A stretch of DNA of 64,000 nt from an uncultured Rhodospirillales bacterium (lineage in GTDB: Bacteria > Pseudomonadota > Alphaproteobacteria > CAAGCB01 > CAG-977): positions 1-64,000 of the forward strand of contig CACYSU010000009.1 in the NCBI GenBank assembly GCA_902777205.1, read 5' to 3'. The first letter of the stretch is position 1; each line of letters begins with the position of its first letter. The notes under the pieces are model-generated. The model did not search any database, had not been told where the DNA came from, and worked only from the letters and a program-made list of their open reading frames with translations. Both the position numbers and the translations under genes were made by a program. Of the stretch, positions 48,754 through 54,263 are shown one piece after another.

Positions 48754-49425
48754 ATGGCAGACCTTAAACGGGAAAACGGACAAATTTTGCGGTCGGACGG
48801 CTATTTGCACGTCAAACGGCCGCCCCGCGAACGCAAATTGACGCCCAAAGAACCGTTGAGCTTTACCGATGCGCCGGAATCCTTTCTGGGGATGCCTTGC
48901 CGGACGATTGAATTCCGCGTTCCGTCCAAACAGGAACGCGCCGCGCGCAGAACACGGTTTGAAATGGAAAAGCGCGCCGCTTTCGTCAAATGGCTGGCGA
49001 ATACGCAACAGGACGCTTTGCGTAAGGCGGGCATTACCAAACGCCAGATCGAGGGGATGAAACACGGATTCACTCCGCACGGTTTCAACACACACCACAA
49101 AGTGCCGATTTTCGGCGGCGGAACGAACGATTTTTCAAATCTGGTTCTGATCCGGCGCGAACCTTATCACGATATGGTGCACTATCACCTGATCAACCCG
49201 CAGACGCGCGGGATGAAAGAGGGCGACGTGCGCAGCGTCGTCGTTCCCGATCCGCAATCGCCCGTTTACGTCCCCGCGCCGCAATACAAGTTTTTGGAAA
49301 AATGGGGAAAACAGGGGCGCAAAACTTACGGAAAGCGGAAAAACGTGACCCTGCAGGACGTGATGAAGGAAATCAAGCGCCGATCGGCCATGTGCCGCGC
49401 CGCCGGACAAGAAAAGGGACGCTGA
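48754..49425 (+). CDS. HNH nuclease-family protein B
   Basis: Protein of 223 residues, paralogue of HNH protein A. The HNH core reads GFNTHHKVPIFGGGTNDFSN and then YHDMVHYHLINPQ. Upstream it shares a charged region (TIEFRVPSKQERAARRTRF) and a helix pair leading into LRKAGITKRQIEGMKHG, the same layout as A, C and D. The C-terminus carries an extra basic tail. GAGG lies 5-8 nt before the ATG. It is followed after 2 nt by HNH protein C. No signal peptide or immunity gene adjoins. Confidence 0.75.
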   Translation: MADLKRENGQILRSDGYLHVKRPPRERKLTPKEPLSFTDAPESFLGMPCRTIEFRVPSKQERAARRTRFEMEKRAAFVKWLANTQQDALRKAGITKRQIEGMKHGFTPHGFNTHHKVPIFGGGTNDFSNLVLIRREPYHDMVHYHLINPQTRGMKEGDVRSVVVPDPQSPVYVPAPQYKFLEKWGKQGRKTYGKRKNVTLQDVMKEIKRRSAMCRAAGQEKGR

Positions 49426-49427
49426 AA

Positions 49428-50018
49428 ATGACCGATTTGGCCATATGCAAACCGACCAAGGCGGAAAAGGAAGCCCGCCGCGCCGAACGCGCCGCGCAAC
49501 AGGCGATCGAACGTCAGAAACGAATCGATGCACTGCCCGATTCCGTTCATGGCGTCCCCATGGTCGAAATGGAATACACCGCCGCCGGAACCAAGAAAAT
49601 CAAGGAAATGCGCCGTTCTTTCACCCCGCAGCGCAAGGCGTTTTTGAAACATCTGGCGCAGACGCAGGCGCCCGTGTTAAAGGCGTTGGGGATGTCGGAT
49701 AATATGATCGCCGGCATGGCGAAAGGGTGCGCGCCGAACGGATACAACGTTCACCACAAACGGCCTTTGGGCGGCGGCGGAAAAAACGAGTTTTCCAACT
49801 TCATCCTGATTAAAAACGATCCCTACCACACTGATTTTCACAAAGTGTCCGACGTGCAAATCTGCAAAATGCAGCCGGGGGAAACGAAAACCGTCAAAAT
49901 CCCCTATCCCGAAGGCAGCATTTTCATTCCGCCGGCCGACCGCGAACGCGTCAAAGCCGCGTTGAACCAAAACGCCGCCGCGGCCGCCGTTTTGCAAAAA
50001 ATGCAAAAAGCGCGATAA
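49428..50018 (+). CDS. HNH nuclease-family protein C
   Basis: Protein of 196 residues, co-transcribed with B. The core is GYNVHHKRPLGGGGKNEFSN with later YHTDFHKVSD, keeping His-His, Asn and His-x3-His. A strongly charged N-terminal helix (KAEKEARRAERAAQQAIERQ) replaces the N-terminus of the others. MQPGETKTVKIPYPEGS matches the post-HNH strand also present in D. Start placed at ATG 49428, with AGGGA upstream. Role unknown. Confidence 0.75.
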   Translation: MTDLAICKPTKAEKEARRAERAAQQAIERQKRIDALPDSVHGVPMVEMEYTAAGTKKIKEMRRSFTPQRKAFLKHLAQTQAPVLKALGMSDNMIAGMAKGCAPNGYNVHHKRPLGGGGKNEFSNFILIKNDPYHTDFHKVSDVQICKMQPGETKTVKIPYPEGSIFIPPADRERVKAALNQNAAAAAVLQKMQKAR

Positions 50019-50093
50019 AAAAAATAGACAAAAAATTCTTTTTGTGGCAATATCCTTTTTAAAGAGATTCTTTGATTGAAAAGGATGATTGCC

Positions 50094-50678
50094 ATGGTTG
50101 CCGAAGACCGCTACGTTCACACAAAACGCGCGAAAAAGAACAGATCCGGAAAAGCGGGCAAAGCCCCGAAAACGCAGACACAGCTGGACGCCGCGCGCGG
50201 CAAGTTCGACTTTACCGAAATCAACGGTTTCAAATTGAAAGAAGTTGAATGGACCGTTCCCGACAAACAGACGCGCAAACGGCGCCGCCGCGCGTTCAAC
50301 GCCGTGCGCGAAGAATTTTTGAAACACATCGGAAAAACGCAGGAACCGGCCTTGCGCGATTTGGGATTGACGGACAAACAGATCGACCAGATCAAAAAAG
50401 GCCACGCCCCCGTCGGATACAACGTCCACCACAAACTGCCGATTCACGGCGGCGGCCAGAACGTTTTTGAAAACCTGATCCTGATGCCGATCAAACCGCA
50501 CGACGAATTGCACCACAAGGTCATGGATCCGCAGGTCGCGCAAATGCAGACGGGTGAATCTAAAAAAGTGATGATCCCGTGGACGGACGACATGGTTTAC
50601 GTCAGTCCGGAACGCAAAAAAGCGTTGCCGCAAAAATCGTTCCTGATGGCCAAAGCCGCCGATCGAACCGGACGATAA
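50094..50678 (+). CDS. HNH nuclease-family protein D
   Basis: Protein of 194 residues, closest to protein A: both have F-x-x-NGFKLKEVEW/F, GYNVHHKLPIHGGG-N, HDELHH-V-DPQ and a C-terminal PW-DDMV strand. The N-terminus is very basic (YVHTKRAKKNRSGKAGKAPK), suitable for DNA binding. It has its own promoter-like region (TAGACA, 17 nt, CAATAT) and a strong terminator, so it is a separate unit. ATG 50094 is preferred over 50085 from AAGG spacing. Confidence 0.75.
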   Translation: MVAEDRYVHTKRAKKNRSGKAGKAPKTQTQLDAARGKFDFTEINGFKLKEVEWTVPDKQTRKRRRRAFNAVREEFLKHIGKTQEPALRDLGLTDKQIDQIKKGHAPVGYNVHHKLPIHGGGQNVFENLILMPIKPHDELHHKVMDPQVAQMQTGESKKVMIPWTDDMVYVSPERKKALPQKSFLMAKAADRTGR

Positions 50679-50763: not shown

Positions 50764-50799
50764 ATTAAATATTGTTGTCATTTATTCAGAGTGCATTTT

Positions 50800-52358
50800 A
50801 TGCAAGAACACATTAAACATCTTTTGGAACAAGGCGAAGGGCTGAAAGTAGAATTTAAAACAGCATCCGGCGGAGTTCCCAAAAACCTTTACGAAACCGT
50901 ATGCGCTTTTTCCAATACCGACGGCGGGGAAATATTGTTGGACGTGACCGACGCCGGTGAAATTCAAGGCATCGAAAAGACTCTTGCGACACAATATAAA
51001 AAAACTTCGTCACAACAATTAACGACGGAGCAAAAATCAATCCTCCGCTTTATTTATCAATAGAGAACATTGAAGTTGACGGAAAACAAATTTTATACAT
51101 CAACGTTCCGCAAAGCTCTCAAGTACACCGGTGCAACGCGCGAATTTTCGTCCGAAACGAAGACGGCGATTTTGATATAACGCATCAACAGAGTAATGTG
51201 GCCGATTTGTACCTGAGAAAACAGTCCACCTATTCCGAAGGAACGATTTACAAAGGCGTTGATTTATCAGATTTACGGGCGGATTTGATTGCCAAATCCA
51301 GAAAACCGGCCGCTCTTCAGCAACCCGACCACAGCTGGGCGTCGCCGGATGATTTTGAACTGCTGAAAAGCGCCGGTTTGTATAAAAAAGATTATAAATC
51401 CGGAGAAGAAGGCATCACAATGGCAGGCGTCCTTTTGTTTGGAAAGGACGATGTCATTTCTTCCATTTTACCGCATTTCAAAACAGACTTGATCATCCGC
51501 GTCAAAGATTCTTTACGTTATGACGATCGGGATGATGTCCGGACAAACTTGATTGACAGCTACGATAGAATCATGAATTTTGTGAAAAAACATCTGCCTG
51601 ATCCATTCTTCCTGAATGGAACAAACCGGCTTAATATTCGGGATGTCATTTTTCGTGAAATAGCCTCCAATATGTTAATACATAGGGAATATACAAATCA
51701 CTTTCCCGCAAAGCTTGTTATCGAAAAGAACAGAATCTTTACCGAAAACGGCAATAAACCCTACATTCACGGAAATATCAATCCGTCCGACAGCACTCCT
51801 TATCCGAAAAATCCGACCATAGCTAAATTTTTCAGAGAAATCGGGCGGGCTGAAGAGTTAGGTTCCGGCGTCAGAAATATCACCAAATACGCCCAAGCTT
51901 ACGCCGGATCTCAGCCCATACTAACAGACAAAGATATTTTCCGTTTGGATTGGGTCGTCAACTTGTTTGATGAGGATATCCCGCCCGCCAACGACCGCAT
52001 GGCAGATCACGGCTTCACTGTTCCCGCCGTTGCGAACGATCAAGCCAGTGATCAAGCTGCCAGCAAAAGTGATCAAGTTGCTAGCAGAAGTGATCAAGCT
52101 GGTGATCAAGTTGCTAGCAGAAGTGATCAAGCTGATAAGCAAGCTGCTAGCGCAAATGATTGGATCGTCGATTTTTGCGCCGTTCCGCGTTCGTTGACGG
52201 AAATCATGAAACAAACAAAATACACGGCGCGCGTTTATTTTAAGAAGACGGTCTTGCAGCCGCTGATCGACCGCGGCGTCATCGCGCCCGTGTTTGCGGA
52301 CAGGCCGAATCATCCGAAACAAAAATACGTCGCGGCCGGACGCGGAAAAAGCTCTTGA
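50800..52358 (+). pseudogene. AlbA_2 / HATPase_c_4 transcriptional regulator, frameshifted at an A7 tract
   Basis: Two reading frames together make one AlbA_2-domain regulator. The first (50800 to about 51004) encodes the AlbA_2 start (EGLKVEFKTASGGVPKNLYE, then FSNTDGGEILLDV). After seven A (50998-51004) the homologous sequence continues in the -1 frame (KKNFVTTINDGAKINPPLYL, then IENIEVDGKQILYINVPQSS) and stays open to 52358. The rest has the HATPase_c_4-like DVIFREIASNMLIHREYTNH and GRAEELGSGVRNITKYAQAY, a DQ-rich linker and a C-terminal winged helix. One more A would restore a single frame, so this may be a mutation, a sequencing error, slippage or phase variation. Base composition is more AT-rich than the neighbours. 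Confidence 0.75.
52071..52136 (+). repeat. 33-bp tandem repeat in the regulator linker
   Basis: Two adjacent 33-nt units (52071-52103 and 52104-52136) differ at one base. They encode DQVASRSDQAG/D. Degenerate copies of GATCAAG flank them (52038-52070 and after 52136). Repetitive DQ linkers are known in this regulator family. Confidence 0.8.
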
Positions 52359-52952: not shown

Positions 52953-53030
52953 CGAATCGAATCGGCGTTTCTTATTATCGTTATTTTTCAAACAATTACG
53001 GAAACGCCGGCTCACCCCTTTCTATTTTGC

Positions 53031-53059
53031 TTGCAAAAACGGCGGAAATGTGGGATATT
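53031..53059 (+). promoter_or_regulatory. Promoter of tRNA-like gene copy 1
   Basis: TTGCAA (53031-53036), 17-nt spacer, GATATT (53054-53059). Both hexamers and the spacing are conserved in copy 2. Confidence 0.6.
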
Positions 53060-53080
53060 AAAAGTATGAGGTGAGATTAT

Positions 53081-53152
53081 CTTCAGGTAGCTTAAGGTAA
53101 AGCAATTCTCTCTCAAAGAATAGATACGGCAGCAAATCCGTCCTGAAGACCA
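53081..53152 (+). tRNA. tRNA-like gene copy 1 (anticodon-position CTC, no T-Psi-C loop)
   Basis: Folds as a cloverleaf: acceptor CTTCAGG/CCTGAAG (7 bp); TA at positions 8-9; D stem GCTT/AAGC with loop AAGGTA (A14, GG, A21); A26; anticodon stem ATTCT/AGAAT with 7-nt loop CTCTCAA (U33, anticodon-position CTC at 53112-53114); variable AGAT; T arm ACGG/CCGT with loop CAGCAAAT; discriminator A then CCA. The T54-T55 of TTC is replaced by CAG, the D loop is short and the total is 72 nt. As a standard tRNA it would read GAG (Glu), but the missing T-Psi-C loop makes ordinary elongator function doubtful. Alternatives are a degenerate tRNA, a non-translational tRNA or a tRNA-like sRNA. Confidence 0.6.
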
Positions 53153-53159
53153 ATTTAAA

Positions 53160-53186
53160 GCCGGAGGTTTTTCCTCCGGCTTTTTC
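53160..53186 (+). terminator. Terminator of tRNA-like copy 1
   Basis: GCCGGAGG (53160-53167) with CCTCCGGC (53173-53180), loop TTTTT, then TTTTTC. Compared with copy 2 the innermost pair is G-C here and A-T there, a compensatory change. Confidence 0.9.
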
Positions 53187-53235
53187 TTTTCAATCAAACA
53201 CCGGACGGCGCATCATATCCGCCGCCGCGCATTAT
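53187..53235 (-). pseudogene. Remnant of the 3' end of a secreted-protein gene
   Basis: On the minus strand GAT ATG ATG CGC CGT CCG GTG and TTT GAT TGA reads DMMRRPVFD-stop. This aligns with the last codons (DMTYRLMFD-stop) of the gene at 53478-54263. The match shows that the duplicated unit once included the end of that gene. A stop codon interrupts the frame just upstream. Confidence 0.6.
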
Positions 53236-53317
53236 CTGGTTTTTCAAATGTTTTCAATTTATAACACTGTTTTTTCAAACGGATTCAAAAAAGGTGTGTC
53301 AATCGTCACATTCACAC

Positions 53318-53346
53318 TTGCAAAAACGGCGGGAATGTAGGATATT
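53318..53346 (+). promoter_or_regulatory. Promoter of tRNA-like gene copy 2
   Basis: TTGCAA (53318-53323), 17-nt spacer, GATATT (53341-53346), the same as copy 1. Confidence 0.6.
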
Positions 53347-53367
53347 AAAGGTATGGGATGAGATTAT

Positions 53368-53439
53368 CTTCAGGTAGCTTAAGGTAAAGCAATTCTCTCT
53401 CAAAGAATAGATACGGCAGCAAATCCGTCCTGAAGACCA
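53368..53439 (+). tRNA. tRNA-like gene copy 2 (identical body)
   Basis: All 72 nt are identical to copy 1, with the anticodon-position CTC at 53399-53401 and CCA at 53437-53439. Flanking sequence has diverged, which suggests either selection on the RNA or recent gene conversion limited to the body. Confidence 0.6.
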
Positions 53440-53447
53440 ATTTTAAA

Positions 53448-53474
53448 GCCGGAGATTTTTTCTCCGGCTTTTTC
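53448..53474 (+). terminator. Terminator of tRNA-like copy 2
   Basis: GCCGGAGA (53448-53455) with TCTCCGGC (53461-53468), then TTTTTC. It lies 4 nt from the stop of the convergent secreted-protein gene and may serve both. Confidence 0.9.
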
Positions 53475-53477
53475 TTT

Positions 53478-54263
53478 TCAATCAAACATCAGGCGGTACG
53501 TCATATCCGCAGGCTGCCGATCATCGGCCGGACGGTCTTTCCACAGCTTGATCGTCAACGACGCGGGCGCACCGGTCAAATCGAAATGATACCCCCGTTC
53601 ATAGGGCGAATAGTTGTTGCATCCGCCCGCTTTGCCGCACGATCCCCCGCGGTGGTAAAATCCCGCCGTACCGATGACGCGCGTGGACAGATTTGATCCG
53701 TCTTTAAAGCGGATATTGGCAACCGACGACGCAAAAACATAATGGTATCCCAAATCGCGCGCATTCGCGTCAGCCAGAACAATCGTGCTGTAATACCCGT
53801 TCTTCCTGTAAAAGGACGTGATGTCGATTCGCGCCGTTATGGTTTGCCCGCGCGCGTCATAATCGACACTGTACGGCGCCAGATAATCAACCGGCGAGCA
53901 ATATCCGCCCTTGTGCTTGAAACCGAACGACGGGATGATGACGTAAAACAGCAGTTCGGGGTTCAGGATGGCCAAGCTTTCACGCGACGCGCCCGCGCCG
54001 ATGTCGGGGGAACGATCGGTACCGTTGCACGAAACTTCATACGCGCCGATCCACGGCGCACCGTCGTCGATTTGAAAAACGTCGGACGACGGCGTGTAAT
54101 CCGCGTTGCCGAACACGATCGAACGGCGGACGGCGTCCGTTCTTTTTTGCAAAACCGCGCTTTTGCTCAATCCGGAAAAGGGTTGCATATCGTGCAAAAA
54201 CACGGTGCGCGCTTCGGCCGGAAAAACCGCCAGCATCAAAATGAAAAACAGTTTAAACATCAT
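53478..54263 (-). CDS. Secreted protein of unknown function
   Basis: Exported protein of about 261 residues with a signal peptide (FKLFFILMLAVFPAEARTV). The mature chain is rich in Tyr, Ser and Gly with four Cys, two near each other (GGSCGKAGGCNNYS), and looks beta-rich (TITARIDITSFYRKNGYYST, FHFDLTG-like end). No catalytic motif is recognised. The start is uncertain: ATG 54263 or 54260 follow GGGGG closely, and GTG 54293 is a longer option. Its 3' end borders the tRNA-like repeat and was partly duplicated with it. Confidence 0.65.
   Translation of the reverse strand: MMFKLFFILMLAVFPAEARTVFLHDMQPFSGLSKSAVLQKRTDAVRRSIVFGNADYTPSSDVFQIDDGAPWIGAYEVSCNGTDRSPDIGAGASRESLAILNPELLFYVIIPSFGFKHKGGYCSPVDYLAPYSVDYDARGQTITARIDITSFYRKNGYYSTIVLADANARDLGYHYVFASSVANIRFKDGSNLSTRVIGTAGFYHRGGSCGKAGGCNNYSPYERGYHFDLTGAPASLTIKLWKDRPADDRQPADMTYRLMFD

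Follow-up and report, generated by a model that had tools for sequence, protein, structure and literature searches.

A pair of identical tRNA-like genes lies in the window (the whole 64,000-nucleotide stretch of DNA analysed here), and with evenly balanced confidence we read it as a tandem-duplicated accessory noncanonical (pseudo-)tRNA gene whose product would serve mainly to mimic tRNAs rather than to supply a GAG decoder that the cell needs. The structural part of this reading is held much more firmly than the mechanistic part: comparison with a homologue in the same genus shows that selection keeps the cloverleaf and the greater part of the tRNA tertiary core and that the acceptor stem, anticodon stem, T loop and anticodon evolve fast, while a non-decoding mechanism is given a chance of roughly one in three. 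Selected tRNA-like genes that decoding can do without are rare in bacteria, and they are poorly understood. The genes described here form a natural series, in which two congeners keep a 7/4 cloverleaf (7-bp acceptor stem, 4-bp T stem) while the acceptor stem, anticodon stem and anticodon change, and one relative is losing the gene; such a series lends itself to tests of charging, of binding to EF-Tu and of roles of pseudo-tRNAs outside translation.

Copy 1 occupies positions 53081-53152 and copy 2 positions 53368-53439, both on the + strand, and their 72-nt bodies are identical (0/72 differences). Each body reads CTTCAGG TA GCTT AAGGTA AAGC A ATTCT CTCTCAA AGAAT AGAT ACGG CAGCAAAT CCGT CCTGAAG A CCA, and its minimum-energy fold is a cloverleaf with a 7-bp acceptor stem, a 4-bp D stem closing a 6-nt D loop (AAGGTA), a 5-bp anticodon stem with the loop CTCTCAA (anticodon CUC), a 4-nt variable loop (AGAT), a 4-bp T stem with the 8-nt T loop CAGCAAAT, A73 and an encoded CCA, giving an 11-bp (7/4) acceptor/T stack. 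The Rfam tRNA model RF00005 scored 54.7 bits for each copy (E 5e-9 for the window), above the gathering score of 29 that was used to accept a covariance-model match as tRNA, and the two CCA-bearing cloverleaves with their CTCTCAA and 6-nt D loops thus bear out the original prediction. ARAGORN, run on the window, reported neither copy, and genes that such a program skips are probably under-counted. The leader, body and terminator together folded better than 199 of 200 dinucleotide shuffles (z -3.3 and -3.5), and the body without leader and terminator showed a modest gain over shuffles (z -2.0). By inspection, the tRNA-like RNAs hold U8-A14, A15-U48 and G18G19 with C56, and have no position 47. 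The T loop, said in the original prediction to be lacking as a T-Psi-C loop, can be read as C53 followed by AGCAAAT; U54 and U55 are indeed lost, but C56, R57 and A58 are kept, so that the wording was too strong. The U54-A58 pair is missing from the window copies and from the homologue in the congener G001, U55 from the window copies, and the 7/5 stems and TTCRA T loop of canonical bacterial elongator tRNAs are found in neither. The tertiary core of these RNAs nevertheless appears largely intact.

Self-comparison placed the genes in a tandem duplication at 53030-53510 with a period of 287 bp, of which 193-194 bp are recognisable in each copy (53030-53222 and 53317-53510); the duplication itself stands as predicted, but is larger than first described. 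Upstream of copy 1 (53030-53080, + strand), a TTGCAA -35-like hexamer (53031-53036), a TATTAA/GATATT -10-like region and a short leader were identified from the sequence and from comparison with host tRNA genes, and the corresponding region of copy 2 (53317-53367, + strand) has the same hexamers, with five differences between the copies. A terminator scan found an intrinsic terminator behind each body on the + strand, at 53157-53183 for copy 1 (AAAGCCGGAGG-TTTTT-CCTCCGGCTTT and a T tail) and at 53445-53471 for copy 2. Both have real-looking 11-bp stems, and the stem of copy 2 carries the compensatory G-C to A-T change that had been noticed earlier. The contrast between body and flanks also held up: the copies differ at 5/51 positions of the 5' flank and 9/71 of the 3' flank, and the 14/122 differences of the flanks set against 0/72 in the body give a Fisher p of 0.0013. 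Selection on the body would be the simplest reading of its identity; gene conversion restricted to the body could be an alternative cause.

The predicted promoters fared less evenly, as the hexamers are present in both copies but a strict sigma-70 consensus scan of the window made no call for the tRNA-like promoter. Among the 37 canonical host tRNA genes checked, a TTGCA-type -35 lies upstream of at least 7, and an intrinsic terminator lies directly 3' of 31. Judged by these terminators and -35 hexamers, the window copies are laid out as ordinary single tRNA genes, and the tRNA-like RNA is probably expressed; it would be transcribed and processed like a tRNA.

A DNA search of 143 relatives returned, beyond matches to the terminator only, one further locus, in G001 of the same genus (contig CALXOZ010000006.1, an uncultured Alphaproteobacteria bacterium). 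Its 71-nt body reads CTCTCTG TA GCTT AAGGTA AAGC A ACTCA CTGTCAC TGAGT AGAT GCGG TTCGTAG CCGT CAGAGGG A CCA and scores 51 bits with RF00005. The D arm, variable loop, 4-bp T stem, A73, CCA and terminator position are common to G001 and the window copies, whereas the anticodon is GUC as against CUC and the T loop TTCGTAG as against CAGCAAAT. The aligned bodies are identical at 50 of 72 positions. Between these two sequences, which are the only intact independent ones on which the covariation is based, 14 of 40 stem positions have changed and all 20 base pairs are kept, with six two-sided changes, two one-sided changes and no broken pair. When 14 random stem changes were simulated, a mean of 10.9 pairs was kept and all 20 were kept in none of 200,000 trials; when the pairing partners were slid by 1-3 columns, 32-48% of cells remained paired, as against 100% unslid. 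The retention of all pairs despite so many stem changes indicates that the RNA fold is being preserved, and together with the layout shared with host tRNA genes it agrees with the view, put forward at the outset, of a selected and probably expressed RNA. Between the two intact members the D arm is invariant and the anticodon arm is not.

A third, decayed relative lies at a contig end in G003. An anticodon arm (ATTCC-CTGTCAA-GGAAT, anticodon GUC), AGAT, a remnant of the T stem and the terminator can be recognised; the D arm and acceptor cannot, and the fold is no better than that of shuffles (z -0.65). The anticodon arm is the best-kept part. Stem-compensated homologues in relatives, which the prediction called for, are therefore found in G001, whereas G003 shows decay. 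Directly 5' of the decayed gene, 4.5 near-perfect tandem copies of a 56-bp unit (L067:11208-11457) mark the point at which the assembly breaks; the unit contains TTTGCAAAAACG, which resembles TTGCAAAAACG at the start of the promoter region of the window copies.

Across the seven genomes of the genus, the gene is intact in the window's own genome, G000 (twice), and in G001, decayed in G003 and absent from G002, G004, G005 and G006, that is, missing or decayed in five of seven; five genomes from other genera of the same family also have no copy. All RF00005 matches in the six congeners, weak ones included, were listed and the low-scoring ones read individually; these were 3' pieces of tRNA genes, genes truncated by a contig end, and two tRNA-like genes of prophages. 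A covariance-model search of about 385 alphaproteobacterial genomes gave, as other strong matches, ordinary tRNA-Lys, tRNA-Asn and tRNA-Glu, and two weak matches of 25-28 bits (L103, of 24% GC, and L104). A pattern search of about 96 relatives with two mismatches allowed gave a few extra matches, which save for the one in G028 were put down to chance, exact and degenerate pattern searches of viral contigs gave nothing convincing, and use of a neighbour protein as bait brought up no further member. A pattern scan of genome contigs matched G001 itself and one contig with an identical copy (L069, CASEGL010000005.1), binned in a Rikenellaceae (Bacteroidota) MAG; a copy identical to that of G001 makes this bin look contaminated. 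With no member found outside the genus in the genomes searched, the family appears restricted to one uncultured alphaproteobacterial genus.

G000 and G001 each have the gene 3' of a DnaJ-domain/BolA-like/AroB/AroK cluster, 5.2 kb and 0.5 kb away, respectively, and in equal relative orientation, which suggests that this neighbourhood is the ancestral position. The genes that immediately flank the loci differ among G000, G001 and G003, and so indicate no partner gene. Elsewhere in the window, three paralogous ORFs follow one another in tandem at 48754-50678 (+); they have HNH-like motifs (GYNVHHKxPxxGGGxNxF) and did not match Pfam. Positions 50791-52358 (+) hold an apparently split Schlafen/AlbA_2 and RecG-C-like gene, with the AlbA_2 start in 50791-51063 and the C-terminal part in 51198-52358, and with a DQVASRSDQ-type repeat.

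The strongest competing view, above all where the G001 copy is concerned, is that the gene encodes an extra, somewhat degenerate translating tRNA, charged with Glu in G000 or Asp in G001 and reading GAG or GAC/U redundantly, which we rate as rather unlikely overall. The resemblance to the host's acidic-amino-acid tRNAs is real: the 7-nt anticodon loops have U33 and A37, that of G000 equals the host tRNA-Glu(CUC) loop and that of G001 its own tRNA-Asp(GUC) loop, CCA is encoded, and the promoter and terminator layout is the same. A 4-nt variable loop without position 47, as seen here, is typical of tRNA-Glu; G001 moreover has the EF-Tu-favourable G49-U65 and G51-C63, and ARAGORN calls this copy tRNA-Asp. 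The acceptor ends, discriminator base, D arm, T arm and overall sequence are different, however. In place of the G1-C72 and G73 of host tRNA-Glu and tRNA-Asp, C1-G72 and A73 are found here. The T loop starts T[TC]CRA in every one of the 44 canonical host tRNAs found, as against the 4-bp T stem without U54-A58 seen here. The C1-G72 pair, A73 and the GUC anticodon of G001 and G003 likewise set the family apart from tRNA-Glu isoacceptors. A count of tRNA-Glu genes, part of the check proposed with the prediction, found canonical Glu-TTC and Glu-CTC genes along with Asp-GTC in G000, and all three are also present in G001, which would make a further decoder redundant. Such a decoder would also have to be reconciled with the loss or decay of the gene in most of the genus and with its divergence: canonical tRNA-Asp genes are nearly identical across species of the genus, and the tRNA-like bodies diverge far faster than the tRNA-Asp genes of the same genomes.

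A link to an extra Glu-type synthetase was considered and set aside. A PF00749 search found two Glu-type synthetases in each of the six congeners and a third gene in G000 alone, and this third gene (contig C4:118-996, - strand, locus L122) is GluQRS, the tRNA glutamyl-Q34 synthetase (NF004315). The target of GluQRS is Q34 of tRNA-Asp, and an anticodon with C34 should not be a substrate; hence no link to the window copies is claimed.

The preferred reading, that of a tRNA mimic, would accommodate these features as follows. With C1-G72 and A73 in place of G1-C72 and G73, the RNA is probably a poor substrate of GluRS and AspRS, and with its 11-bp acceptor/T stack and altered T loop it is probably a poor substrate of EF-Tu and the ribosome; it could then use its anticodon arm and elbow to compete for a nuclease or a protein that binds tRNA. 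That both intact members match acidic-tRNA loops, and that the anticodon arm has stayed intact longest in G003, mildly favours a contact role of this arm, as decoy or regulator. More specifically, though only tentatively, the genes may represent a new genus-specific 7/4 family that mimics acidic-amino-acid tRNAs, switches its anticodon between Asp and Glu and works outside decoding, for example as an anticodon-nuclease decoy or as a regulator bound by a tRNA-binding enzyme.

A narrower version links the decoy or regulator specifically to a tRNA-cleaving toxin or to phage defence, with the Glu/Asp loop absorbing an anticodon nuclease, and seems to us distinctly unlikely. It would explain why the anticodon arm is best preserved in the decaying G003 copy, why the gene is patchily present, and why species differ in the anticodon but retain a tRNA-like loop. 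Next to the G000, G001 and G003 loci, however, no toxin gene was recognised, and what is invariant between the intact members is the D arm, not the anticodon arm.

Descent from a mobile element, as a carried or captured tRNA that is now decaying, had been named as the chief alternative in the original prediction and now looks improbable. It would fit the patchy distribution and the decay in G003, and prophages of the genus do carry odd tRNA-like genes. One of these, in a Mu-like prophage of G002 near a transposition protein and a late activator (L105:4212-4279, +), has normal D and T arms and a collapsed anticodon arm; the other, in a G003 prophage with a CI-like repressor (L106:4279-4353, +), is a short tRNA with a CAT anticodon that ARAGORN calls tRNA-Met. 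Against such an origin stands the retention of all pairs through compensatory changes, and the gene has a promoter region and a terminator of its own; beside neither intact locus was an integrase or any phage gene recognised, the window copy had no match in phage and plasmid collections or viral contigs, and the G001 copy matched only phage tRNA-Thr at chance level (E 0.2). Genuine tRNA 3' fragments of the genus also look different: at L107, L109, L110, L113, L114 and L117-L119 (G002-G006), pieces from the 3' end of tRNA-Lys, Val, Ala, Glu and Thr genes border on unrelated DNA and resemble attachment-site remnants that integrated elements leave. The window copies are whole genes with their own terminators, and the best host tRNA has only 45 positions in common with the 72-nt body; they were not classed with such remnants. 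The host tRNA-gene layout, the matching canonical tRNAs and the structural selection point instead to an expressed-looking (pseudo-)tRNA gene that is, on this comparative evidence, a dispensable accessory and not a mobile-element remnant.

Least probable is a non-proteinogenic tRNA serving an aminoacyl-tRNA-dependent enzyme of cell-wall, lipid or peptide modification, the analogy first drawn for these genes, since its one structural hint, the EF-Tu-weak A49-U65 pair known from S. aureus tRNAGly (PMC4052509), is confined to the window copies, the anticodon and hence likely the amino acid differ between species, and no such enzyme was seen nearby. The S. aureus non-proteinogenic tRNAGly genes, which have A49-U65 and A51-U63 and no GG18-19 (PMC4052509), resemble the present ones in being tRNA-like genes additional to canonical isoacceptors and in an altered T stem (A49-U65 in G000). 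The RNAs described here, in contrast, keep GG18-19, are not Gly tRNAs and have G51-C63 in both intact members, with G49-U65 in G001; a search for a FemX-type enzyme, confined to the FemAB family (PF02388), found no member in any of the seven genomes of the genus. They were not assigned to that class.

No bacterial 7/4 tRNA family was found described in the open-access literature searched. Among noncanonical bacterial cloverleaves whose anticodons vary, the allo-tRNAs (Mukai 2017) come nearest; their acceptor branch is 12 bp long (8/4 or 9/3), their variable arm is long, and their anticodons include GUC, some members being pseudogene-like and of unknown role (PMC7609411). The genes described here differ from them in their 7/4 (11-bp) branch, 4-nt variable loop (AGAT) and A73, and were on this ground kept apart from the allo-tRNAs; positions -1 and 73 could pair in G000 (U-A) and not in G001 (C, A). 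Nearest in concept, as a working analogy only, is tRNA-Other of Bacillus cereus, a pseudo-tRNA with a sense (Trp) anticodon that is thought to stand outside translation, is dispensable for growth, flanks a pathogenicity island and sits in longer regulatory transcripts (PMC3399842). The window genes belong to another phylum and look short and monocistronic, with no island seen beside them; like tRNA-Other, they are extra tRNA-like genes with a sense anticodon, present only in some relatives (PMC3399842).
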